Shown in pieces: positions 12,276-25,758 of a stretch of 64,000 nt of DNA. The DNA is from Acidobacteriota bacterium (GTDB taxonomy: Bacteria; Acidobacteriota; Terriglobia; Terriglobales; Acidobacteriaceae). The translations under genes were made by a program, and so were the position numbers. Numbering within the stretch: position 1 is the first letter of the stretch; each line of letters starts with the position of its first letter. Under the pieces are notes generated by a model. It was given only the letters and a program-made list of their open reading frames with translations. It was not told where the DNA came from and searched no databases. The stretch spans positions 1-64,000 of the forward strand of contig JANYDG010000114.1 of the NCBI GenBank assembly GCA_025359885.1, in the 5' to 3' direction.

Positions 12276-13182
12276 ACAAGGTAAATACTGAGCAGACCGT
12301 ATCGACCTCACTAATCTGCCAAATTTATTTTTCACGCTTTGCATTGGCCACTAAGGGCCGGGTCGGTTGAGAACAAACTGTAGGGACCAGGGTCAACGGT
12401 TAGTTAACCTTCGCTGTAGCATAACCTTTCCCGGTTGATCGTCCCGTAAGCCACGGTGCGAATACCCAAGCTGACGGGACTTCTGAGTCACCGGGAGGCA
12501 TTGCGCAATCAATCTATCCAGTGCTCTATATTGCCGGATGTCGACCTCCTCAGGCGTAACGTATCCATTGACTAGTTTGGACAACGATTGGGCGGGAGCG
12601 TCAGGGAGAGCTAACTTAATTCTCGAGGTTGGTGCCGCATGGAGCGTATGTCAATCCCGGTGTGCAACAAACGGTATCCGTTCATGGTTTTCTCAACCGT
12701 GAGCATGGTCACTCTTCATATAAGCAGCGCTGCCTCTCTCTAACAGGGCGGGGCACACCGCAGAGCCATCACATAGACGTTATGGGGTAGCTTCGCAGAT
12801 TCGACTTTCGCTCTGATACCGGTTTGTTTGTTGTTAAGTACTCTTCTGTACCCGGGAGGTGTTAGGGGATCGAAGGCAGGTTTCGATAGGCTGAGATTTG
12901 TTTATCGATTGACGATTGCCTGCAAACGACCAAGGTGATATTTCTCTTTTCAAAGGGAGCGCAGCGAGATCATGAAAGCATACGGTTTGCTGGTGTAGGC
13001 GAAGAACTTCCCTGGCGGAATCCGATTTTCGCTTGCCGATCACGGTTCAATGAGTGACTCGGCGATTTCGCATCCGTCGAGAATTGCGGCTTCGGGAATA
13101 GCTTCTAGGTCTTCGCAGACTACAACGCGAGGAATTCGGTCAAGCCCAAGCCCGCGCCCTCTGACCGCGCGGCCGACTCCCT
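12276..13182. other. Gene-poor decayed region, about 900 bases
   Basis: Only short open frames are present (for example 63 codons at 12393-12584 and 67 codons at 13040-13243, both minus) and none resembles a known family or has a convincing ribosome site. Base composition is lower in G on either strand than in the adjacent genes. Together with the recombinase fragments on its left it is best read as remnants of a degraded mobile element. No RNA gene or array is seen. Confidence 0.5.
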
Positions 13183-15282: not shown

Positions 15283-15895
15283 TCAAGACAACGTGATGCT
15301 CGGAAACAGCTTTGTCCCCTCGTACTTCAGGCCGCTTCGGAATAGCCCATAGATGGCGTCCAGCAACTTCCTCGCAACAGCAATGAGCGCCTGTAGACGA
15401 GCTGTCTTTCGAACCAGCAGGCCTTCGAAGAAGGCTTTGCATAGGGATCGCAACGAGATGCGACCAGCGCCGGCATGTAAAGCGCTCTTCTCAGGTGACG
15501 ATTTCCAGCACAGCTGATGCGCGATGCCTTTCTCGCACCGTAAGATCTGACGGCAGCGTAGACAGTTCTGCGAGCAATTGCATCGCGCTCAGCTGTGCGA
15601 TGCCCGGAATGCTGATCAACAGCTCATATCTCTTGCGGAGCAAGTCATCTTGCCGGACAAGTATGATCGCTTCGCGTCGAAGTCTTTGGATACGGAGTTC
15701 CAGAGATGCTACCGAGCGCTTTAAATCCTGAAGAACATATCCAGGTGTGGAAGAGGAGCCGAGTGCTGCGTGAAGACGGTTCTGATTCTGAGCGCTCTGC
15801 GCAGACAGACTCTCGACGTGGCGGACAATTGAGCGCAGTCGCATTGAAACAAGACTGGGTGCGACCCGAGTATACTTTGGCTAAACAGCTTGGAT
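15283..15895 (-). pseudogene. IS110/IS116/IS902-family transposase remnant
   Basis: On the minus strand the pieces of one transposase can be followed through several frame changes. First APSLVSMRLRSIVRHVESLS then NQNRLHAA (about 15870-15760), then RYELLISIPGIAQLSAMQLL, the helix-hairpin-helix-like core of the C-terminal domain (about 15650-15590). After a short deletion comes SRISCAGNRHLRRALYMPAL (about 15520-15460), then ARLQALIAVARKLLDAIYGL and the end at 15283. In-frame stops, at least two frameshifts and loss of the N-terminal RuvC-like half show it is dead. IS110 elements have no terminal inverted repeats, and none is seen here, so its ends cannot be set. Confidence 0.75.
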
Positions 15896-16336
15896 AAGCT
15901 GATAACAGTACTGGATGCGGGAAAGTAGTCACAACTGTTGACCCAAAAAACGAGAAAATCCTCCATTTAAAGTCGAGAAAAACGGGGTAGGTCAGTGTAG
16001 ATGCGGAGGTTTTTTATGGGATTGTGAAGTCAGCTTGCGTTTGCCGACCCAATGCAGAGATGGCCATAACGGGGCAACTCCCGATTCCAGGACTGCCGCG
16101 ACTGGAATTGCGAGTTGGCAATGACGTGTTCATCGGGATCTTGCGATCGCTTCTTCGATACGCGAGCCAGCACGGGACGCGTATACACCCATGAACGGGC
16201 ATACATAAAATAATATGTCGGTGAGTGACTCGGCGAGTTTTGGGCAGACTGGAAGGGCTACCGCGTCTAGGGTGGCGTCAATCGCGGTCCGTAACAGGTG
16301 AATTATGCTGAGCAACAACAAAGGAAGGACTCTTGG
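15896..16336. other. Intergenic region before the TetR gene
   Basis: About 440 bases with no recognisable gene. A 43-codon plus-strand frame from about 16061 to 16193 was seen but has no family resemblance. It presumably contains the regulator's promoter and the outer edge of the IS110 element, neither of which can be placed exactly. Confidence 0.35.
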
Positions 16337-16984
16337 GTGAGGAAGAACACGCGTGCGCCGCAGGCGACCTCGAGGGAGAAACTGATTCTTAGCGCTGAGC
16401 GCCTTTTTTCCGTTCGAGGTTTCGACGGGGTTTCTGTGCGAGACATTGCGAACAATGCCAAGGTCAATTCCGCTCTGCTTGGATATTACTTCGGCGGTAA
16501 GGCAGGCCTGTTGGCTGAGGTTTATACGCGCCATTGCGAACCCTTGAGGCGCGAACGCGGCCGCCTCTTGGACGCGTACCGGGCGGAAGCAAAGTCTCTG
16601 ACTGTGGAGGCTGTCCTCGATGCCTTTATTCGGCCCTCGTTGGAGGCCAATCAAGGCACTGAGCAGGGCCGGAGCTTTTCCCGACTGCGAGCCATCCTCT
16701 TGGCGGAGAACTCTATGTTGCTGGAGCAGCTTGTCGCGGAGAATTTCGATGAGACGAGCCGAACTTTCGTGAAAGCGTTCTGCGAATGTTTGCCCCATTT
16801 GAAGATTGAAGACGTCTTGTGGCGATTTCACTTTCTGCTTGGAGGAATTTACTACACAGCATTGGGACCGCACCGCATTCACATCCTCTCCAATGGCAAG
16901 TGCAATCCATCGGATCCTGACGCCGCGCGAGAGGAGCTGATACGGTTCGCTGCCGCCGGCTTTCGAGCACCAGCCAAACAGTAA
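16337..16984 (+). CDS. TetR/AcrR-family transcriptional regulator
   Basis: 215 residues. A GTG start at 16337 is preferred to the GTG at 16298 because AAGGA at 16325-16329 is well spaced and because the protein then begins just before the DNA-binding domain. Residues about 12-60 are a classic TetR three-helix HTH: REKLILSAERLFSVRGFDGV, then SVRDIANNAKVNSALLGYYF, where the recognition helix ends in YYF. The remainder is an all-helical ligand-binding and dimer domain without a recognisable subfamily. It lies directly upstream of, and in the same direction as, the gallate operon, whose promoter carries a palindrome over the -10 box. Most likely a repressor released by a pathway compound, possibly gallate or an intermediate. 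The effector is inferred, not seen. Confidence 0.85.
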   Translation: MRKNTRAPQATSREKLILSAERLFSVRGFDGVSVRDIANNAKVNSALLGYYFGGKAGLLAEVYTRHCEPLRRERGRLLDAYRAEAKSLTVEAVLDAFIRPSLEANQGTEQGRSFSRLRAILLAENSMLLEQLVAENFDETSRTFVKAFCECLPHLKIEDVLWRFHFLLGGIYYTALGPHRIHILSNGKCNPSDPDAAREELIRFAAAGFRAPAKQ

Positions 16985-17060
16985 GGGCCAAAAATCCGCG
17001 TCTTGCCGCTTCACAGAATCGGCGACCTGTCGTGCCGAAAAGAGAGAAGTGCTATCTAGC

Positions 17061-17088
17061 TTGACAGTTGGCCTTTCACATTTATACA
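17061..17088 (+). promoter_or_regulatory. Sigma-70 promoter of the gallate operon
   Basis: A perfect TTGACA (17061-17066) and TATACA (17083-17088, five of six) are separated by 16 bases. The first gene starts at 17128, leaving a short leader of about 30 bases. This is the best-looking promoter in the window. Confidence 0.7.
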
Positions 17089-17097
17089 ACTGTGTAA
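17082..17097. promoter_or_regulatory. Palindromic operator overlapping the -10 box
   Basis: TTATACA-AC-TGTGTAA is a 16-base palindrome with seven-base arms and one mismatch. It covers the -10 element and the probable transcription start, the usual place for a TetR-type repressor to block transcription. The TetR gene ends about 100 bases upstream. Confidence 0.55.
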
Positions 17098-17127
17098 TGC
17101 CAGGCTAGGCAAGTGGCGAGGTGTGAC

Positions 17128-18225
17128 ATGGAATCTGGAATTCGCTGCATGCTGATGCGTGGAGGAACTTCGAAGGGTGCCTATTTTCTTGTCAACGACC
17201 TTCCGTCGAATTTAGCCGAGCGAGACGATCTTCTGCTGCGCATTCTGGGGTCGCCCGACTCTCGCCAAATCGATGGCATCGGAGGTGCCCATCCACTCAC
17301 GAGCAAGGTCGCCATCGTGAGCCGGTCTTCGTCATCCCAAGCGGACATTGATTTTCTCTTCGCCCAGGTGGGCGTTGAAGAGCCCCTTGTGGACACCACA
17401 CCCAACTGTGGGAATATTCTTGCCGGCGTCGGTCCTTTCGCCATTGAGCGCGGCCTGGTTCAGGTGACTTCGGACGAGACACGTATACGAATCAAGACCC
17501 TCAATACCGGAACTCTCGCGGAAGTCATAGTGGCGACCCCGAATGGTCGTGTCGAGTATGCGGGAGAGACTGCTATTGCCGGCGTACCGGGTACCGCAGC
17601 TGCCATTCCGATCAATTTTCTGGATACGGCAGGATCTGTCTGCGGTTCACTTTTCCCAACGGGGCAACGAATCGACATGGTGAAAGGCATTGCAATCACA
17701 TGTATCGATAACGGAATGCCAGTAGTTCTACTTGCTGCCGCGGACTTCGGGTTTCGTGGGACGGAGAGCTGTCAGGAGATTGAAGCTGCGACCGAGGCTC
17801 TGCAGAAAATCGAGAGCATACGGCTTGAGGCCGGATGCCGCATGGGGCTCGGAGACGTCTCGGACGCGGTGTTTCCGAAGATGTGCCTTATCTCATCGCC
17901 GATTGACGGCGGATGCGTTAATACGCGAACGCTGATTCCAAAGAAGTGTCATACTTCGATCGGAGTCTTCGGTGCAGTGAGCGTCGCCAGCGCAAGTGCG
18001 CTGCCAGGAACGATTGCTTACCCAATGGCGGTGCGGCCCGATGGTCGAATCAAGATCATGGATATCGAACACCCCACCGGGAAGCTCGAAGTAAGGTTGG
18101 AGATCGGTGGGACAGACGAGGAGCCGACGGTTGAACGCGGAGGGCTGGTTCGCACTGCGCGCGCCCTGTTTGATGGAACAGTATTTCCGCGACCCCTGCG
18201 AGCAAATGCCGTGGTGGTTGCATGA
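17128..18225 (+). CDS. galD: 4-oxalomesaconate tautomerase (PrpF family)
   Basis: 365 residues; interconverts keto/enol isomers of 4-oxalomesaconate in the gallate and protocatechuate 4,5-cleavage pathways. ATG at 17128 has GAGG at 17118-17121; an upstream GTG (17113) lacks one. PrpF/DapF-like fold is indicated by the opening IRCMLMRGGTSKGAYFLVND, by the cysteine-bearing loop TTPNCGNILAGVGPFAIERG (about residues 92-111), and by the second half GTAAAIPINFLDTAGS. PrpF relatives that isomerise aconitate share this fold, but the following three genes are all gallate-pathway enzymes, so GalD is the best reading. First gene of the operon, it overlaps the next by four bases (ATGA). Confidence 0.88.
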   Translation: MESGIRCMLMRGGTSKGAYFLVNDLPSNLAERDDLLLRILGSPDSRQIDGIGGAHPLTSKVAIVSRSSSSQADIDFLFAQVGVEEPLVDTTPNCGNILAGVGPFAIERGLVQVTSDETRIRIKTLNTGTLAEVIVATPNGRVEYAGETAIAGVPGTAAAIPINFLDTAGSVCGSLFPTGQRIDMVKGIAITCIDNGMPVVLLAAADFGFRGTESCQEIEAATEALQKIESIRLEAGCRMGLGDVSDAVFPKMCLISSPIDGGCVNTRTLIPKKCHTSIGVFGAVSVASASALPGTIAYPMAVRPDGRIKIMDIEHPTGKLEVRLEIGGTDEEPTVERGGLVRTARALFDGTVFPRPLRANAVVVA

Positions 18226-19094
18226 TGCGGGCGCTGAAGGAGTTCGGTGCATGCGATTGTCACAGCCATGTGTTTGGGCCGTTCGATGCGTTTCCCCCGT
18301 CAGCGCAACGAAGCTATGACACTCCAGAAGCTCCGATCGAATCGCTTGAGGCTGTATGGCGCGATATCGGAATCGACCGGGCTGTTCTCGTGCAAGGGAG
18401 CATTTATGGTCCAGATCACCGGGTATTGCTGGCGGCCTTGCGGCGCGACCCCAAGACGCGACGAGGCGTCGCTCTCCTTGACCACACGGTCGGCGAGGCC
18501 GAGCTCGAGGACTTCCACAGCAAGGGCATTCGCGCGGTCCGTCTGCATTGGGTACAACATCTGCAGGCATACGGCAATCGGACAGAAGCGCAGCGGATCG
18601 CGGAGGCCTCGGCGTTGTGCGAACGAATTGCCCCGCTAGGATGGCATATCGAGATTCATCTTGATGCAGCCGATTTAGAGATACTGAAACGGCTTAGATT
18701 GCCAAGCGACATGCCGGTGGTGATTGACCATATGGCGCGAATCGACATGGCAGCGCCAGAGAGTGACGCTCAACTCGGACTGCTGAGCTGGCTTCTCGAG
18801 AACCCCGTCTTCTGGATCAAACTGAGCGGAGGCGATCGTCTGGCTCAGCAACGCGATGACCTCCGCGATGCTCTGAAGGTGATGACGCATCTCTTGAGGG
18901 TCGCCCCAGACCGTTGTGTATGGGGCCTCGATTGGCCGCATGTGAATTTGCCGAAAAGACGCAGCGACCTGTCTCTTTCGCAGTTGCTCGTGGAGGCTAC
19001 AGGAGAAGAGCAAGTATTGAGAAAAGTACTCAAGGACAATCCGGCACGATTGTACGGTTTTGACGATTTGGTTTTGGCCGAACGGAGGCAGTGA
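18222..19094 (+). CDS. ligI: 2-pyrone-4,6-dicarboxylate hydrolase-like amidohydrolase
   Basis: 290 residues, amidohydrolase (TIM-barrel) family. It begins with CDCHSHVFGPFDAFP, matching the HxH-FGP opening of LigI, and has VWGLDWPHVNLPKR near residue 235, where the Asp is the expected catalytic general base; IDHMAR in the middle is also typical. LigI opens 2-pyrone-4,6-dicarboxylate to 4-oxalomesaconate. In gallate degraders this rescues the pyrone formed when ring-cleaved gallate cyclises, which fits this operon, since there is no dehydrogenase for making the pyrone from protocatechuate. Translation is coupled to galD by a four-base overlap and the galB start follows six bases after the stop. 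Confidence 0.83.
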   Translation: MMRALKEFGACDCHSHVFGPFDAFPPSAQRSYDTPEAPIESLEAVWRDIGIDRAVLVQGSIYGPDHRVLLAALRRDPKTRRGVALLDHTVGEAELEDFHSKGIRAVRLHWVQHLQAYGNRTEAQRIAEASALCERIAPLGWHIEIHLDAADLEILKRLRLPSDMPVVIDHMARIDMAAPESDAQLGLLSWLLENPVFWIKLSGGDRLAQQRDDLRDALKVMTHLLRVAPDRCVWGLDWPHVNLPKRRSDLSLSQLLVEATGEEQVLRKVLKDNPARLYGFDDLVLAERRQ

Positions 19095-19100
19095 GAAGCA

Positions 19101-19829
19101 ATGCAACACAATGGGAAAAAGACTGGGTTGGTTGTTGGGGCACATTCGGCAGACTTCATCTGGCGAGCTGGCGGAGCCATCGCGCTCCACGCAGAGATGG
19201 GCTGGGACATTACGGTTGTATGCCTTACCTTTGGTGAAAAGGGAGAGAGCCAAAAGCTCTGGAAGGATCCGAGCATGACGCTCGATCGGGTAAAGACCGA
19301 ACGAAGAGCTGAGGCAGAACGCGCCGGCGCCATCCTGGGTGTTCAGGACATGCAGTTCTTTGACCTCGGCGACTATCCGATGCGCACTACGGTCGACGAT
19401 GTGGAGCGAATGGCCGATATCTATCAGGGCGTTCGGCCGCAATGGGTGCTGACGCATTCACTCGAAGACCCGTATAACTTTGATCACCCGGAGGCTACGC
19501 GCTTCGCGCAAGAAGCGCGTGTTGTAGCTCAAGCGCATGGGCGCCGGGGAATTACGGCTGCCATAGGTGCGCCCCCCGTCTTTCTGTTTGAGCCACACCA
19601 GACGGAGCAATGCAATTGGAAGCCGCAAGTCATTCTCGACATTAGCGATGTGTGGGACATCAAACGTAAGGCGTTCGAGAGTATGGATGCGCAGGAACAT
19701 CTTTGGGAATACTACACACGCGTGGCCCTGCAGCGCGGCATGCAGGGAGCCCGCAACTCGGAACGCAAGATGAAGTACGGAGAGGCTTATCAACGGGTGT
19801 TTCCGATGGTGACGGGAGAGCTTCTATGA
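19101..19829 (+). CDS. galB: 4-oxalomesaconate hydratase, PIG-L/LmbE-type
   Basis: 242 residues. The LmbE/PIG-L fold is shown by GLVVGAHSADFIWRAGG (residues about 9-25), where His and Asp bind zinc, and by HSLEDPYNFDHPEATRFA (about 120-137), with the second metal-binding His cluster. GalB of Pseudomonas putida is the known member of this fold that hydrates 4-oxalomesaconate to 4-carboxy-4-hydroxy-2-oxoadipate instead of removing acetyl groups, and the AHSADF variant of the usual AHPDD agrees with it. The classical LigJ hydratase is absent. Overlaps galC by four bases (ATGA). Confidence 0.85.
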   Translation: MQHNGKKTGLVVGAHSADFIWRAGGAIALHAEMGWDITVVCLTFGEKGESQKLWKDPSMTLDRVKTERRAEAERAGAILGVQDMQFFDLGDYPMRTTVDDVERMADIYQGVRPQWVLTHSLEDPYNFDHPEATRFAQEARVVAQAHGRRGITAAIGAPPVFLFEPHQTEQCNWKPQVILDISDVWDIKRKAFESMDAQEHLWEYYTRVALQRGMQGARNSERKMKYGEAYQRVFPMVTGELL

Positions 19830-20530
19830 AGATGGGTACCGTAGTACGGACGATTCCCCGTTGCCCGACGGAGTTGTTGAAGGAGTTGGCGACGGCCGGA
19901 GTTGCGACGACGCATGAGGCGATGGGCAAAATTGGTCTGATGCAGCCATACATGCGGCCGATCTATCAAGGCGGGCGCATAGCGGGGAATGCCGTGACCG
20001 CACTGGTACATCCGGGTGATAACTGGATGCTCCATGTCGCGGTCGAACAATGCCGTCCAGGAGATGTCCTGGTGGTTGCTGTTTCTGCAGAGAATCACGA
20101 TGGGATGTTCGGCGACCTATTGGCGACTTCGTTGAAAGCGCATGGCGTGGCGGGACTGGTGATCGACGCTGGCGTCCGCGACGTCGAAGATCTGCGGCAG
20201 ATGCAGTTTCCCGTGTGGTCGCGCTGCGTGTCGGCGAAGGGAACGATCAAGGCGACCCTCGGCATGGTCAACACGCCCGTTGTGTGCGCTGGCGCTTCTG
20301 TGCGCGGCGGAGATATCGTTGTAGCCGACGACGACGGAGTTGTCGTGGTCCCGTTTCGTGCGGTGGACGCAACGCTGGCGGCATGCCGTCAACGGCTGGC
20401 GAAAGAAGCGACGAAGCGACAACGGCTGGCGAACGGTGAGTTGGGTCTTGACATCGAAGTGATGAGGCCAACACTCGCACAACTTGGGATGCGCTATTAC
20501 GACACGTTGGAAGAAGCTGAAAGTTCATAG
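19826..20530 (+). CDS. galC: 4-carboxy-4-hydroxy-2-oxoadipate aldolase (RraA-like)
   Basis: 234 residues. The start at 19826 overlaps the galB stop as ATGA; the longer open frame upstream is shadow. The RraA/HMG-CHA aldolase core is clear: TTHEAMGKIGLMQPYMRP near residue 30, GDLLATSLKAHGVAGLVIDA then GVRDVEDLRQMQFPVW (about 95-130), in which the Arg and Asp of GxRD bind substrate and the metal. It cleaves 4-carboxy-4-hydroxy-2-oxoadipate to pyruvate and oxaloacetate, the last step before the citric acid cycle; the same family can also decarboxylate oxaloacetate. This completes the lower gallate pathway inside one operon. Confidence 0.88.
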   Translation: MKMGTVVRTIPRCPTELLKELATAGVATTHEAMGKIGLMQPYMRPIYQGGRIAGNAVTALVHPGDNWMLHVAVEQCRPGDVLVVAVSAENHDGMFGDLLATSLKAHGVAGLVIDAGVRDVEDLRQMQFPVWSRCVSAKGTIKATLGMVNTPVVCAGASVRGGDIVVADDDGVVVVPFRAVDATLAACRQRLAKEATKRQRLANGELGLDIEVMRPTLAQLGMRYYDTLEEAESS

Positions 20531-20542
20531 CGAAAGGTGCTT

Positions 20543-21499
20543 ATGACATATCATCCGCAGTTCGGAGACATTGCGCATCTTGGGCACATCGAACTCCGCA
20601 CCTCGAAGTTTGAAGAAAGTCTCGCTTTCTTCACCGATATCATCGGATTGCATGAATCGGGCAGAAGCCGTGACTCTGTCTTCCTGAGAGCCTGGGCGGA
20701 TTATGAGACGTTCACGTTGCAGTTGACGCGCGCAGAGTCTTCAGGCCTGGGTCACGTAGCCTTCCGTACGCGCAGCGAGGCCATCCTCGCCCAGCTCGTT
20801 CGAAGTATTGAAGAGCACGGCATCAGGGGAGAGTGGCGCACGGAGAACTTTGGTCACGGACCAGCGTACCGTATTGCAAGCCCGGATGGACATCCCGTCG
20901 AGATTTACTTTGAGACTACGAAATTCCAACCAGTAGGTGACCAGACTCCCGGTTATAAGAACATGCCGCAGCGGTACCGACCTTTGGGAATCGCGCCTAA
21001 AAGACTGGACCACCTGAACCTTCTGGCTCAGGACATTAAAGGCTGTCGTCTCTTCTTTCACGATCTGCTTGGCCTGCGTGTGACGGAGCAAATCGTCTTT
21101 GAAGATGACGAAATGGGTGCATGGCTCGCTGCCACCAATAAGTCCTACGACATAGCTTTTACACGCGACAGAAGCAAGGCAAGTGGCCGCTTCCACCACC
21201 TGACATACATGATGGACAGCCGGGAAGATGTATTGCGCGCCGCCGATATCCTCGTTGAAGCCGGAGTCGCTATCGAAACAGGGCCACATAAACACGCCAT
21301 CGGACAGACTTTCTTCCTGTACTTCTACGAACCGGGTGGAAACCGCATTGAGATTGGTGCAGGCGGGTATCTCATCTTCGATCCGGACTGGCAGCCAGTT
21401 GTGTGGTCGCGGCAAGAGCGCAGCAAAGGACAGGCATGGGGCTTGCCAACAGTCAGCACATTTCACAGCTATGGCACGCCTCCTGAGAGCGCGGAATAA
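20543..21499 (+). CDS. Type I extradiol ring-cleavage dioxygenase (VOC fold), candidate gallate dioxygenase
   Basis: 318 residues with two vicinal-oxygen-chelate domains. ATG at 20543 has GAAAGG at 20532-20537; the GTG six bases earlier overlaps that site. Domain 1 starts LGHIELRTSKFEESLAFFTD; domain 2 starts RLDHLNLLAQDIKGCRLFFH. The expected iron ligands are His157 (RLDH), His218 or His219 (FHHL) and Glu270 (GGNRIE), and LYFYEPGGNRIE closely matches the extradiol dioxygenase signature, including the active-site Tyr. Catechol 2,3-dioxygenases share this layout. In this operon every other enzyme acts after ring cleavage of gallate, and no LigAB/GalA-type (class II) dioxygenase is present, so this protein is the only candidate for opening the ring. 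The substrate is inferred from context. Confidence 0.8.
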   Translation: MTYHPQFGDIAHLGHIELRTSKFEESLAFFTDIIGLHESGRSRDSVFLRAWADYETFTLQLTRAESSGLGHVAFRTRSEAILAQLVRSIEEHGIRGEWRTENFGHGPAYRIASPDGHPVEIYFETTKFQPVGDQTPGYKNMPQRYRPLGIAPKRLDHLNLLAQDIKGCRLFFHDLLGLRVTEQIVFEDDEMGAWLAATNKSYDIAFTRDRSKASGRFHHLTYMMDSREDVLRAADILVEAGVAIETGPHKHAIGQTFFLYFYEPGGNRIEIGAGGYLIFDPDWQPVVWSRQERSKGQAWGLPTVSTFHSYGTPPESAE

Positions 21500-21501
21500 C
21501 T

Positions 21502-22740
21502 ATGCCCGACCATCGCCTTTTATCTCGCCCTGCGCAGACATCCTGGCTCACGGTACTCCTGGCTATTTCAGCGGGAGTGCTGGCTGCTTTTCAGGTAGGC
21601 AAGGTGCATATCGCGCTTTCGTCGATCCGCCAGTCGTTCTCGCTCGGGCTGGTAAACGCGTCGTGGATACTGTCTGCCCTCAGCATCGTTGGCCTATTTG
21701 CGGCAATTCCCACCGGCACGCTCGGAGACAGATTTGGGAACAAACTTACTGTCATCGCCGGCCTGGTTCTCATCGCAATAGCCAGCGGCCTGGGCGGTTT
21801 GGCGCCAAGCCTGCCGTGGCTGCTGGTCTCTCGCTTGGTTGAGGGTATCGGCTTCGTGATGGTGGTTGTCGCGGCCCCATCCATGGTGGTTGGAGCAACC
21901 GCACCCGAGAACCTTCGAATTGCTCTCGCTGGGTGGTCTGCCTACATGCCCGGCGGGATCGCATTGATCACATTTCTTGCACCACTCGTGTTTGCGCACC
22001 ACACCTGGAGAGCTTTGTGGTCGTGCAACGCGATTCTGTTGCTCGTGCTTGCCGTTGCGATTGGGCTGCTCGCTCAAGGCGCAAGACCAGTCGGTGCAAG
22101 AGCGCACACACGTCGTCCGCTGGAAGAGTTGAAGAGCGTAATGACTGCCAGGGGCCCGGTGGTCCTTGCGCTCATCTTTGGCATGTATACCATGCAGCAT
22201 CTGTCCGTAATGGGCTTTTTGCCGACGCTCCTGTACGAGCGCTTTCAAGTTCCGGATGCTCGAATCGGATGGCTGGTTTCGATCGCGATGGCCTCCAACA
22301 TCATTGGCAATCTCGCCGCGGGAGTCCTACTCCAACGAGGCGTCTCTCGATCGAGCATCATTGCAACCGCATCGATCTTCATGGCGTGCATGACGGTCGG
22401 AATGTTCGTGCTTCCTCTGCCGTTCACCGCGTTCTATGCTTGCGCCTTTGCGTTTTCCTGCTTTGGCGGCCTTGTGCCTTCGTGTGTCATGGGCGCGGCA
22501 CCCTTCCACGCCCCGGAACCATCTCTGCTTGGCGCAACCAACGGGCTGCTCGTGCAGGGCAGCAACCTCGGGACAGTCTTCGGCCCACTCTTGATGAGCA
22601 CCATCGCGACCCATCTCGGTTGGACCTGGGTACCAGTCCTGACAGGCGGCGCTGCTGCCATTGCCGCGCTTCTTGCCGGCAACCTCCGTGCCACAACGCA
22701 CTCGCAACCGGACTATCTCGCGTCGGAGGTTATTCCGTAA
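21502..22740 (+). CDS. Major facilitator superfamily transporter
   Basis: 412 residues with about 12 hydrophobic segments in two groups of six, separated by a polar stretch near residues 195-215 (GARAHTRRPLEEL). The MFS loop 2-3 motif is present as GTLGDRFGNK at about residue 75. It resembles the CynX/NimT-type branch more than the aromatic acid:H+ symporters (PcaK/GalT). It starts two bases after the dioxygenase stop and its TAA overlaps the next ATG, so it belongs to the operon. Most likely it imports gallate or a related aromatic acid through the inner membrane; export of toxic phenolics is the alternative. Confidence 0.82.
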   Translation: MPDHRLLSRPAQTSWLTVLLAISAGVLAAFQVGKVHIALSSIRQSFSLGLVNASWILSALSIVGLFAAIPTGTLGDRFGNKLTVIAGLVLIAIASGLGGLAPSLPWLLVSRLVEGIGFVMVVVAAPSMVVGATAPENLRIALAGWSAYMPGGIALITFLAPLVFAHHTWRALWSCNAILLLVLAVAIGLLAQGARPVGARAHTRRPLEELKSVMTARGPVVLALIFGMYTMQHLSVMGFLPTLLYERFQVPDARIGWLVSIAMASNIIGNLAAGVLLQRGVSRSSIIATASIFMACMTVGMFVLPLPFTAFYACAFAFSCFGGLVPSCVMGAAPFHAPEPSLLGATNGLLVQGSNLGTVFGPLLMSTIATHLGWTWVPVLTGGAAAIAALLAGNLRATTHSQPDYLASEVIP

Positions 22741-23279
22741 TGCACGTCAAAAAAGATGGACTGGAAAAGCCTGCCATTGATCGATCACGACCGAACCCCA
22801 ACGGAGTTCGGGAAGCCGTACACGCCGGCCTGCTCGGCGGACTGGCCGGTGGAGTCACCATCTGGATCTACGAAGCTCTCGTCTGGGTAGGAGCACAGCA
22901 CTTGCTGCCGCTCTCCGGCATCCCGTCGAATGCAGTGGGGCTGGTCTTCGGCAATGCGTTCAAGATGGCGATTGGAGCATGGGCCTATCCTCTTGGAACC
23001 CTCATCCATTTTGGATTCGCGATCATCTGGGGCGTTTTGTTCGCTACGCTCTGGCCGTCTGCCCGTCGGCGCGGTTACGAGGCCACCTTCGTCGCCATCC
23101 CCTACGCCGCTGTCGCCTGGGTTACGATGCATATTGCCATCTCAATTTCCTCCCGGGACCACCCGAACTATTACGATCCCGTCGTGATCATCGGCGGCGT
23201 GATGTCGCACATTTTTTTCGCGGTACCAATGGCGTTGGTGATAAAGCGGCAGATGTCTAACGCAGTGCCGGAGATGTGA
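22740..23279 (+). CDS. Small inner-membrane protein of unknown function
   Basis: 179 residues; ATG at 22740 overlaps the stop of the transporter (TAATG). After a charged 25-residue N-terminus there are five hydrophobic segments, including AGLLGGLAGGVTIWIYEALV, GFAIIWGVLFATLWPS and VVIIGGVMSHIFFAVPMALV. The pattern recalls YagU/DUF1440-like membrane proteins, but the match is by general look only. Tight coupling to the transporter and tannase suggests a helper in uptake or in phenol or acid tolerance. Function not recognised. Confidence 0.6.
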   Translation: MHVKKDGLEKPAIDRSRPNPNGVREAVHAGLLGGLAGGVTIWIYEALVWVGAQHLLPLSGIPSNAVGLVFGNAFKMAIGAWAYPLGTLIHFGFAIIWGVLFATLWPSARRRGYEATFVAIPYAAVAWVTMHIAISISSRDHPNYYDPVVIIGGVMSHIFFAVPMALVIKRQMSNAVPEM

Positions 23280-23308
23280 AAGCTAGATGGAAAAGGATCG
23301 AGCACACG

Positions 23309-25138
23309 ATGATGCGTCAGTACAATCGTAAGAACTGGTTCTTCCTGGTGTTTGCGGCGTTGGCGATGTTTTCGATAACCCCGCAAATACTTAGCGCACA
23401 GAATGCTCAGACAGCGCCGCCCGCGACTCCACAAATTGCTGTACTCGGAGTCATAGCCCCGGCAACCTCATGTGAGGAGCTTGCCAAGGCAGACATCAGC
23501 GGGACAGTTGGTGCGAAGGCGCACATCACTTCCGCCGAACGAGTGCCGCACGGAAGCCCTGCTCCATACTGTCGTGTGACCGGCTTCATAGAGCCCATGG
23601 TGAAGTTTGAGGTGCGACTTCCGCTCAACACATGGACACAGCGCTTTGTTCAGACTGGGTGCGGTGGCCTATGCGGGAACCTCAGCATCCATCTCGGCAA
23701 CGACGAAGGTTGCTATCCTGCGCAGCATGGAGAGCTTGCACTCGCATCGACTGACATGGGTCACACGGGCGGCATGGATGGGCAGTTTGGAGAGAAGGAC
23801 TATCAGCTCCGCATCGACTTTGCCTATCGCGGTGTGCACGTAACCACGCTTGCAGCCAAGGCACTCATCCATCAGTTTTACGGGCAAGACGCCAGGTATT
23901 CGTACTTCTCGGGCTGCTCCGATGGCGGACGTGAGGCGCTGATGGAGGCCCAGCGCTATCCGCAGGACTTCAACGGCATTGCCGCCGGTGCGCCGGCAAT
24001 GAACTTCACCACACAGAACACCTTTTACCACGGTTGGAACGCGCTTAAGAACACCGGGGTAGATGGGAAGCCGATTTTGACTGCGGATAAACTCCCCATC
24101 CTGTACCAAGCGGCTCTAGAAGCCTGCGATGCAATCGATGGCTTGAAGGACGGCCTGATCAGCGATCCGTTCTCCTGCCACTTCGATCCTTCGGTCGTTG
24201 AATGCAAAATGGGAACAAATCAGGAGGGATGCCTCACGCACGCACAGGTTGAGACAGCACGCGCTATCTACCAGGGTGCCCACGATGCCGAGGGAGACAG
24301 ACTTGTCTTGAGCGGGCCACTGCCTGGGTCAGAACTGGCCTGGGCTGGTGTCTACGTTCCGCAGCCAGGCAACGATCGCATCATGAGTGCGATGATTTCA
24401 ACTGGAACACTGAAGAACCTTGCCTATGAAAAGAACCCGCCGCCGGGTTATACGCTTCAAGATCTCGAATTCACTCCAGCGTTGTTCGAGGCGACTACCA
24501 AACTGCACGCTCTCTACGACGCGACCGACCCGCAGCTTACGCCCTTTGCCAAGGCTGGCGGAAAGCTGATCCTGTGGCATGGTCTGGCGGATCCGCATAT
24601 TTCGCCTCTCAACACGATTGCGTATTACGAGGCTTTGAACAAAACAATGGGCGCGAAGGAGGTTCAGCAGTTTGCGCGAACGTATCTGTTTCCGGGCGGC
24701 TACCATTGCGGGGGCGGAGAAGGTCCGTTCAGTTTTGATGTGATGAGCGTCTTGATGGCCTGGGTGGAAAAGGGCACTGCACCGCACGCCCTCGTTGCTT
24801 CGCATCAGGTTGACGGTCCGCGCGGGCCGATTGCTGGAACTTCCCAAAGTATGCCTCAGGCAGCGCTGCCCCTTGGTCGCGGCACTCCGGATATAGATAT
24901 TGCTGCCCGCGGTACCGCACCAACGGTCGATCGGATGCGGCCAGTCTATCCTTATCCACTTACGGCAAAGTACACAGGGACAGGCAGCATAGACGACGCA
25001 AAAAACTTCATCGTGGGGCCTCCAATCTCAGTGCCATCGTCACAACTTACTTGGCTCGGCTCAGCTTTTTTCACTCATCACCCGATGGTATGGTGCGTGG
25101 GGCAAGGTGCCCGCATGAACTGCACCTCGAAGCCATAA
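23309..25138 (+). CDS. Tannase/feruloyl esterase-family secreted esterase
   Basis: 609 residues. ATG at 23309 gives a good signal peptide (MMRQYNRKNWFFLVFAALAM...) with AAGGA at 23293-23297; a GTG at 23276 overlapping the preceding stop would add 11 residues before it. Alpha/beta-hydrolase of the tannase family: nucleophile Ser204 in SGCSDGGREALMEAQRYP, an Asp in LILWHGLADPHISP and a His in FPGGYHCGGGEGP; cysteines flanking Ser and His (GCS and HC) match the family's CS-D-HC disulphide. It would release gallate from tannins or hydroxycinnamates from cell-wall esters outside the cytoplasm. As the last gene of a gallate-degradation operon, tannase is the better reading. Confidence 0.87.
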   Translation: MMRQYNRKNWFFLVFAALAMFSITPQILSAQNAQTAPPATPQIAVLGVIAPATSCEELAKADISGTVGAKAHITSAERVPHGSPAPYCRVTGFIEPMVKFEVRLPLNTWTQRFVQTGCGGLCGNLSIHLGNDEGCYPAQHGELALASTDMGHTGGMDGQFGEKDYQLRIDFAYRGVHVTTLAAKALIHQFYGQDARYSYFSGCSDGGREALMEAQRYPQDFNGIAAGAPAMNFTTQNTFYHGWNALKNTGVDGKPILTADKLPILYQAALEACDAIDGLKDGLISDPFSCHFDPSVVECKMGTNQEGCLTHAQVETARAIYQGAHDAEGDRLVLSGPLPGSELAWAGVYVPQPGNDRIMSAMISTGTLKNLAYEKNPPPGYTLQDLEFTPALFEATTKLHALYDATDPQLTPFAKAGGKLILWHGLADPHISPLNTIAYYEALNKTMGAKEVQQFARTYLFPGGYHCGGGEGPFSFDVMSVLMAWVEKGTAPHALVASHQVDGPRGPIAGTSQSMPQAALPLGRGTPDIDIAARGTAPTVDRMRPVYPYPLTAKYTGTGSIDDAKNFIVGPPISVPSSQLTWLGSAFFTHHPMVWCVGQGARMNCTSKP

Positions 25139-25187: not shown

Positions 25188-25505
25188 TCAAGGGCGGAGT
25201 AAAACTATGCCAGTGTATATCTGCGCTCGCTCGACCGTCTTTTCCTCTTTGCGCTTGGTCATCGGATCGATGCCATGAGCGAGCAGCTTTCGGGCCTGAT
25301 CTCGGCGTTCCCTGGCGTCTGCGAGGGTGATAATGGGGTATTTGCCCAGGGACATGAGCTTTTCGCGTCCTTCGAACTCATAGGCCCAGCGCCATAGCTT
25401 GCCCCCGGCAGGCGTAATCCAAAGAAATAGGCTATTTGCATCGCTCAAGCGATAAGGTTTGTTGCCGGGCTTGGACTTCCGCACTTCTGTATCGGTTAGC
25501 GGCAT
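25188..25505 (-). pseudogene. Integrase N-terminal fragment (DUF4102/arm-binding domain)
   Basis: Reads leftward from ATG at 25505. The first 95 residues are a normal arm-DNA-binding domain of a CP4-57/P4-type tyrosine recombinase: MPLTDTEVRKSKPGNKPYRL, then ITPAGGKLWRWAYEFEGREK, then SLGKYPIITLADARERRDQA. Family resemblance stops at about residue 95 and the frame closes at 105, against a usual length of about 400, so the core-binding and catalytic domains are lost. The gene would point away from the tRNA-Ser gene 165 bases to its right, which is the normal layout for an island integrase next to its tRNA attachment site. This end of the element is therefore still recognisable. Confidence 0.82.
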
Positions 25506-25670: not shown

Positions 25671-25758
25671 TGGCGGAGAGACAGGGATTCGAACCCTGGT
25701 TACCTTGCGGTAAACACGCTTTCCAAGCGTGCGCCTTCAGCCACTCGGCCATCTCTCC
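25671..25758 (-). tRNA. tRNA-Ser(GGA)
   Basis: The minus strand folds as a class II tRNA of 88 nt with encoded CCA: acceptor GGAGAGA pairs with TCTCTCC, discriminator G, T-arm CAGGGTTCGAATCCCTG, a long variable arm (TTTACC-GCAA-GGTAA), and anticodon GGA at 25722-25724 in the loop CTTGGAAAG. It reads UCC/UCU serine codons. Its 3' end faces the integrase fragment, making it the likely attachment site of the island to the left. Confidence 0.97.

Follow-up and report, generated by a model that had tools for sequence, protein, structure and literature searches.

How might a soil acidobacterium open the ring of gallate with an operon that encodes the later steps of gallate breakdown and no gallate dioxygenase of the known type II kind? 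The question is raised by a stretch of 64,000 nucleotides (the window; assembly GCA_025359885.1, contig JANYDG010000114.1, positions 1 to 64,000) from an Acidobacteriota bacterium of the family Acidobacteriaceae, the draft genome of which comprises 4.2 Mb in 125 contigs and is 95% complete. On the + strand of the window, a gene for a TetR-family regulator is followed by eight co-directional genes: galD, a ligI-like gene, galB, galC, a dioxygenase gene, and the genes for an MFS carrier, a small membrane protein and an exported esterase of family PF07519. An earlier description made without database searches (the sequence-only reading) had already placed these genes, and we confirmed their positions, the ATGA overlaps of galD with ligI and of galB with galC, and the TAATG junction between the carrier and membrane protein genes; searches of Pfam, NCBIfam and PDB are consistent with the gene names. 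It had also listed a ring-cleaving dioxygenase and left its kind unstated; such an enzyme is encoded, and it belongs to type I with the VOC fold. We propose, with a probability of about 0.7, that the genes form a TetR-controlled operon for the catabolism of galloyl esters in which a type I gallate dioxygenase stands in place of GalA. The pathway logic is ordinary, and the novelty is the ring-opening enzyme.

The ring-cleaving enzyme

The dioxygenase gene (20543 to 21499, + strand, as are all genes of the operon) encodes a two-domain protein of the glyoxalase/VOC family (PF00903), which scores 323.1 bits against the catechol 2,3-dioxygenase model TIGR03211 (cut-off, 320.2); among its relatives, the protein of Agrobacterium tumefaciens (296.8 bits) falls below this cut-off and that of an acidobacterium of the same class (locus L051, 345 bits) lies above it. 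Judged by these matches, it is an XylE-like type I enzyme, and not one of the GalA, DesB or LigAB kind, which belong to the LigB superfamily (type II). In a seven-row alignment, H157, H219 and E270 are invariant and match residues of XylE; we take them to be the 2-His-1-Glu iron ligands. At the place of XylE His199, presumably the second-sphere catalytic acid-base residue, the window enzyme has Tyr202. Tyrosine is found here in 37 of the 38 relatives with at least 45% identity, the sole exception being L056, and in the closest solved protein, PDB 9wgj; histidine is found in three distant relatives (31-43% identical) and in PDB 3lm4 and 7q2a (alike entries), 3hpv and 1mpy. XylE, AphC and LapB (1mpy, 7q2a/3lm4 and 3hpv, respectively) share the two-domain VOC family and the iron ligands with the window enzyme; however, the latter has Tyr202 for His199 and, in the place of their Thr or Asp, His249, and its gene has gallate-pathway instead of catechol-pathway neighbors. 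Among the sequences compared, His249 follows a pattern similar to that of Tyr202, but it is also present in L056, and 9wgj has Ser. The L056 protein (genome G299) is a VOC paralogue that lacks the ligand His157, has His at position 202, and is probably inactive or repurposed.

No type II enzyme of the GalA/DesB kind was found among the operon proteins with Pfam and NCBIfam. In the draft genome, the single LigB-family match was a 301-aa frame, for which NCBIfam gave no match up to E 1e-30 except 4,5-DOPA-extradiol dioxygenase (127.5 bits, below the cut-off of 233), and one VOC gene of the window kind was found. The VOC enzyme is the candidate ring opener because it is the sole ring-opening enzyme in the operon and the draft genome has no GalA-type match. 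Passages of papers on AromaDeg (PMC4250580) and DesB (PMC3962378) assign gallate dioxygenases to the LigB superfamily, and in the open-licence PMC literature, judged from listings and passages, we found no description of a type I or VOC-type gallate dioxygenase. A gallate cluster of Rhodococcus opacus PD630 is mentioned in a passage of PMC9942251, from which the type of the dioxygenase is not apparent.

The genes for the later steps point to gallate. The galD gene (17113 to 18225, with an alternative ATG at 17128) encodes a PrpF-type 4-oxalomesaconate (OMA) tautomerase (NF033377, 509.6 bits; cut-off, 440), the only copy of this enzyme found in the draft genome. The galB product (19101 to 19829) is an OMA hydratase of the PIG-L fold (PF02585), whose best PDB match, 5cgz, is itself an OMA hydratase (305 bits over 235 residues) and which is 59% identical to the annotated GalB of Pseudomonas oryzihabitans. 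The galC product (19826 to 20530) is an RraA-like CHA aldolase/oxaloacetate decarboxylase (PRK09262, 355.5 bits, cut-off 179; TIGR02798, 326.6 bits, cut-off 304.5). Because GalD and GalC score above equivalog cut-offs, GalB closely resembles a solved hydratase, and all three act only after ring opening, we infer gallate as the substrate and OMA as the product of the dioxygenase. A further enzyme, an Amidohydro_2 protein (18222 to 19094), is a probable 2-pyrone-4,6-dicarboxylate (PDC) hydrolase: its top PDB matches are LigI (E 7e-35), with which the HxH motif and the late Asp align, and its sole NCBIfam match is sub-threshold (4-sulfomuconolactone hydrolase, 157; cut-off, 500). It is 40% and 36% identical to amidohydrolases of Roseomonas and Azospirillum, respectively, both encoded near galC.

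Gene neighborhoods of the VOC relatives

A search of 399 genomes of the class gave some match to the dioxygenase in 96; in 23, the source genome included, the match was full-length with at least 52% identity, in one it was a fragment, and the remainder were weaker VOC matches. Nineteen of the other genomes supplied 20 regions, none longer than 20 kb (three genomes at 52-55% and the genome with the fragment were left out). Together with 16 regions from plasmids and the contigs L036 and L037, they make up 38 loci, from which the more distant L039-L041 (31-43% identical) were left out; the plasmid regions were hand-picked from the match list and are thus a non-random sample, in which one region represents 19 listed, near-identical A. 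tumefaciens isolates from walnut. Among genes that share the strand of the VOC gene and lie no more than 5 kb from it, galB was found in 15 of the 38 loci, galD in 15, galC in 19 and all three in 14, and a PF07519 esterase gene and a LigI-like gene in two each. The three gal genes were present together in 11 of the 16 plasmid regions. They are contiguous with the VOC gene, typically in the order galB-VOC-galC-galD in A. tumefaciens, A. vitis, Thioclava and Rhizobium spp. and VOC-galB-galC-galD in Roseibium, and the acidobacterial L051 has ligM-VOC-galB-galC-galD. The sequence-only reading had suggested a search for the same gene order in other Terriglobia; galB, galC and galD indeed accompany the dioxygenase gene in two of the 19 genomes, but the esterase gene in neither.

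The galBCD cluster of P. oryzihabitans comes with a gallate dioxygenase of type II (798 bits; cut-off, 412), so that elsewhere the VOC gene fills the slot of GalA. Furthermore, the gal-linked VOC genes occupy three separate places on a quick 42-row tree, namely the clade of the window, the plasmids of alphaproteobacteria, and L051. Such a distribution indicates an ancient association with repeated losses or one that arose several times, and either history speaks for a functional link.

A ligM-like gene adjoins the VOC gene in L051, L059, L060 and L061 and lies one gene away in L052. The five proteins score 752.8-768.8 against the vanillate/3-O-methylgallate O-demethylase model (cut-off, 580), and none reaches the threshold for the syringate demethylase model. 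In L049, L053 and L058, the VOC relatives are accompanied by galC and the genes for a SnoaL_4 protein and a DUF1932 dehydrogenase, and in L049 and L053 additionally by those for an alpha/beta hydrolase and an amidohydrolase; by analogy, this set might serve a methylgallate route like that of MgaC/MgaD in Pseudomonas sp. NGC7.

The GalB/GalC loci without a VOC match (L097-L109) have a different arrangement and were set aside, and L111 matched only as a distant GalB. In L097-L109, which come from other acidobacterial families, galB-galC pairs are adjoined in 12 of the 13 loci by a conserved gene of about 313 aa, a Thermus oshimai relative of which is annotated as DUF6282; eight loci have a second gene of about 395 aa, and no VOC or galD match was found in the stretch.

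Proposed route and competing substrates

Gallate carries a hydroxyl group on the carbon at which the ring is opened, and its extradiol cleavage gives the tricarboxylate OMA directly; no dehydrogenase of the LigC type is therefore needed. In the route that we propose, the exported esterase would free gallate from galloyl esters or tannins and the MFS carrier would bring it into the cell. The VOC enzyme, replacing type II GalA/DesB, would then open the ring to OMA, which GalD would tautomerize and GalB hydrate before GalC splits the product into pyruvate and oxaloacetate. A self-contained route of this kind, with gallate as the likely substrate of ring cleavage, had been suggested by the sequence-only reading and is supported by homology and synteny. 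Its remark on the absence of LigC holds for the operon: neither the LigAB nor the LigC family occurs among the operon proteins, and LigC was not sought elsewhere in the genome. The LigI-like enzyme could salvage PDC formed on opening of 3-O-methylgallate or gallate, a role that would explain why the nearest operon, L036, can do without a ligI-like gene. A passage of PMC12481942 describes both sources of PDC: GalA opens 3-O-methylgallate to CHMOD, which turns into PDC non-enzymatically, and PDC is also formed from gallate with PcaHG. According to passages of PMC12314914 and PMC9942251, the galTAP/galBCD system of P. putida KT2440 has, like the window, GalD, GalB, GalC, an MFS carrier and a route via 4-oxalomesaconate; the window differs in its type I VOC enzyme for the type II GalA, its TetR protein for the LysR-type GalR, the esterase and LigI-like genes within the unit, and the lack of a porin gene.

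Several observations weigh against this interpretation. The three gal genes are not found together within 5 kb in 24 of the 38 loci, and the full set is not near the VOC gene in 18 of the 20 class regions. Some VOC relatives lie near genes for a DUF1932 dehydrogenase and an amidohydrolase and galC, without galD. In Thioclava, Rhizobium SL42 and Q54, genes for DUF1932/NAD(P)-oxidoreductases are divergent from the gal unit; in A. tumefaciens and A. vitis they lie about 5 kb away. Rhizobium daejeonense has galB, galC, DUF1932 and galD, and no annotated VOC gene closer than 6 kb. Because many relatives lack the gal set or are found with DUF1932, the VOC subfamily may serve more than one substrate or catechol. 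In one of the 11 gal-complete plasmid regions, that of Rhizobium etli IE4771 (L115), a stop codon interrupts the VOC gene and galC is in two pieces; this galB-VOC-galC-galD unit looks decayed. The closest solved relative, 9wgj, is titled catechol 1,2-dioxygenase; no paper naming the entry was found in the open-licence literature searched, and the title was not among the 50 Foldseek matches listed. An AlphaFold model of the dioxygenase, built with seven sequences, was of poor quality (mean pLDDT 59, pTM 0.44), and the listed Foldseek matches of the model were VOC dioxygenases with a TM of about 0.3 only; therefore, we make no argument from the pocket and conclude nothing past the family. Finally, PF07519 includes feruloyl esterases and MHETase, which are the PDB matches of the window esterase.

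The main alternative substrate of the dioxygenase is 3-O-methylgallate, derived from syringyl or other methoxylated phenolics. The enzyme would then mainly produce PDC and methanol, the LigI-like protein would convert PDC to OMA, and the esterase would act on methoxylated phenolic esters and not on tannins. The presence of a LigI-like PDC hydrolase within the operon is in keeping with this, as are the ligM-like genes close to the VOC gene in five relatives and the described fate of 3-O-methylgallate with GalA. However, no ligI match was found in L036, which is the closest operon with an esterase gene, nor, up to 5 kb from the VOC gene, in any of the 11 alphaproteobacterial loci with galB, galC and galD. 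The window operon has no O-demethylase gene, and in L051 LigM would yield gallate before the cleavage step. We thus consider it unlikely that 3-O-methylgallate is the main substrate.

Two further explanations seem much less probable. One is the 4,5-cleavage of protocatechuate, with the step of LigC carried out by an unrecognised dehydrogenase. The LigI, hydratase and aldolase steps are common to both routes, an Azospirillum cluster of that kind combines PIG-L/galB, galC, galD, amidohydrolase and ligAB-type genes with a Gfo/Idh/MocA oxidoreductase gene, and DUF1932/NAD(P)-oxidoreductase genes occur near several VOC relatives, including gal-linked ones. Nevertheless, the window operon has no dehydrogenase gene and the gallate route needs none, which makes protocatechuate a poor candidate; that DUF1932 was unmatched in the source genome counts for little, since the control genomes were unmatched too. 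The other, to which we give slightly less credence still, is that an ordinary catechol 2,3-dioxygenase came into a gallate operon by chance and the true ring opener is encoded elsewhere. The enzyme does pass the cut-off of TIGR03211, but by 3 bits only. Contiguity with galB, galC and galD recurs in distant lineages and in separate parts of the VOC tree, nearly all close relatives share the Tyr for His199, no catechol lower-pathway gene was found in the operon with Pfam and NCBIfam, and the source genome has no GalA/LigAB-type match except the DOPA-type gene.

Returning to gallate, it is fairly probable that enzymes of this VOC fold, with Tyr for the catalytic His of XylE, constitute a second, structurally unrelated class of gallate dioxygenases that function in gallate or methylgallate catabolism in Acidobacteriota, Rhizobiaceae and others. 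The swap of a VOC enzyme for GalA seems to have taken place also in rhizobia and agrobacteria. If this is true, such genes are now annotated as catechol 2,3-dioxygenases or simply as VOC family proteins, and automatic annotation overlooks gallate degraders among soil, root-nodule and plant-associated bacteria, as searches for galA/desB find nothing and the VOC gene is filed as a catechol enzyme. Gallate ring opening would have had a second, independent origin, and the enzyme would offer a test of type I catalysis with Tyr in the place of the presumed acid-base catalyst His, and a marker gene for tracing what becomes of hydrolysable tannins in soil.

Regulation, esterase and flanking DNA

The regulator gene (16298 or 16337 to 16984, + strand) encodes a protein with TetR_N and TetR_C_30 domains above the Pfam cut-offs, and counterparts with 68-79% identity are found at the equivalent place in the L036 and L038/L043 operons; the protein is likely to be the repressor of the operon. 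A putative promoter, TTGACA-16-TATACA, can be read at 17061 to 17088 (+ strand). The putative operator TTTATACAacTGTGTAA (17081 to 17097, + strand) overlaps its -10 element, precedes galD and is kept in related operons; as TTTATACAnnTGTGTAA, it forms an imperfect dyad over TATACA, 16 bases behind TTGACA. Except for its 2-base center, the site upstream of galD is identical in the window, L036 and L038/L043. The -35 element is TTGACA in the window and L036 and TTGACT in L038, and TATACA is common to all three. Among 133 loci, the site was present in four, namely L036, L038, L043 and L127, of which L127 is the site of the window itself and L038 and L043 are one contig, judged by length and matches. 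It occurs once in the 4.2-Mb source genome with up to one mismatch allowed, so that no further copy, and no wider regulon, was found there. A consensus scan did not report the promoter because TATACA breaks the rule of the scan for position 6, and by the same scan promoter-like sites were not enriched in the region (1 versus 3.7 in shuffles). The TetR gene and the promoter/operator ahead of the operon, both noticed in the sequence-only reading, are supported by the conserved operator-like site and the plausible -10 element; a site over the -10 element would fit a promoter-blocking repressor, from which we infer repression and an inducer that relieves it.

The MFS transporter (21502 to 22740; MFS_1 in Pfam) matches the aromatic acid/H+ symport subfamily weakly (52.9 bits; cut-off, 418.6), and we propose it as an aromatic-acid importer. 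The small membrane protein (22740 to 23279) has hydrophobic segments and no Pfam or NCBIfam family. Homologues are encoded close to the 3' side of the same dioxygenase gene in L036 (10960-11466) and L037 (about 12311-12829). In L037 the other gal genes are not nearby, and the protein may have a role in uptake.

The esterase (23309 or 23312 to 25138; PF07519, 414 bits) has an N-terminus that resembles a signal peptide by eye and the motifs GCSDG, D-x-H and HC, which we take to be catalytic. MHETase and fungal feruloyl esterases (PDB 6qz2 and 6g21) are its PF07519-type sequence relatives; its neighborhood, by contrast, points to galloyl esters, on which we propose that it acts. The sequence-only reading took the genes for such esterases to be kept apart in proteobacterial gallate clusters, and their presence in one unit with ring cleavage and the lower pathway to be unusual. 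Neither view was borne out: plasmid pAt of A. tumefaciens 186 has galB-VOC-galC-galD-tannase in the annotated record, and Burkholderia pyrrocinia has, on one strand, an annotated gallate dioxygenase-MFS-amidohydrolase-ligK-one other gene-tannase-porin. In P. oryzihabitans, a further counter-example to the former view, the tannase gene lies about 8 kb from galB. The pAt unit has the same five functions as the window (VOC 51% and esterase 42-44% identical) in another gene order, with no LigI-like, MFS or small-membrane-protein gene among the annotated neighbors and with divergent ABC transporter genes. The B. pyrrocinia unit shares with the window the single-strand layout of genes for an esterase, a carrier, a ring-cleaving enzyme and an aldolase, but has a gallate dioxygenase, by annotation name only, in place of the VOC enzyme; its annotated genes, as far as shown, include one for an amidohydrolase and not galB. 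In Escherichia albertii a tannase gene is near UbiD/UbiX-type genes, and in Rahnella, Caballeronia and Thioclava no gallate gene is among the annotated genes within 6 kb of the tannase gene. Thus, PF07519 genes 42-49% identical to that of the window are sometimes, not always, near gallate genes. The window esterase is 33-35% identical to the products of the three other PF07519 genes of the genome and 42-49% to seven plasmid ones; a 12-row tree sets it apart from its three own paralogues, with long joined branches and open forks, and is not relied on.

The nearest operon, TetR-galD-galB-galC-VOC-Mem-Tan on contig L036 (1-20954), with 83% identity in the VOC enzyme and 76% in the esterase, is filed under a metagenome-assembled genome of Rhodanobacteraceae. 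A gene in its flank has up to 66% identity within the family of the window organism (62 of 100 genomes matched) and about 40% in eight listed of 329 plasmid records, which are no fair proxy for Rhodanobacteraceae chromosomes. With the flank gene pointing to an acidobacterial origin, the contig was probably misbinned, and we claim no transfer of the operon across phyla.

Upstream of the operon, short overlapping frames on the - strand (15491-15966) look by eye like a decayed transposase; the frame at 15491-15844 matched no Pfam family. Directly behind the operon, a truncated integrase gene (25188-25505, - strand) retains only the Arm DNA-binding domain (PF13356, 92 bits), and beside it is a tRNA-Ser(GGA) gene (25671-25758, - strand); with as many as 3 mismatches allowed, no second copy of the end of the tRNA gene was found in the window. 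The integrase remnant and the tRNA gene are probably what is left of an island located at a tRNA site.

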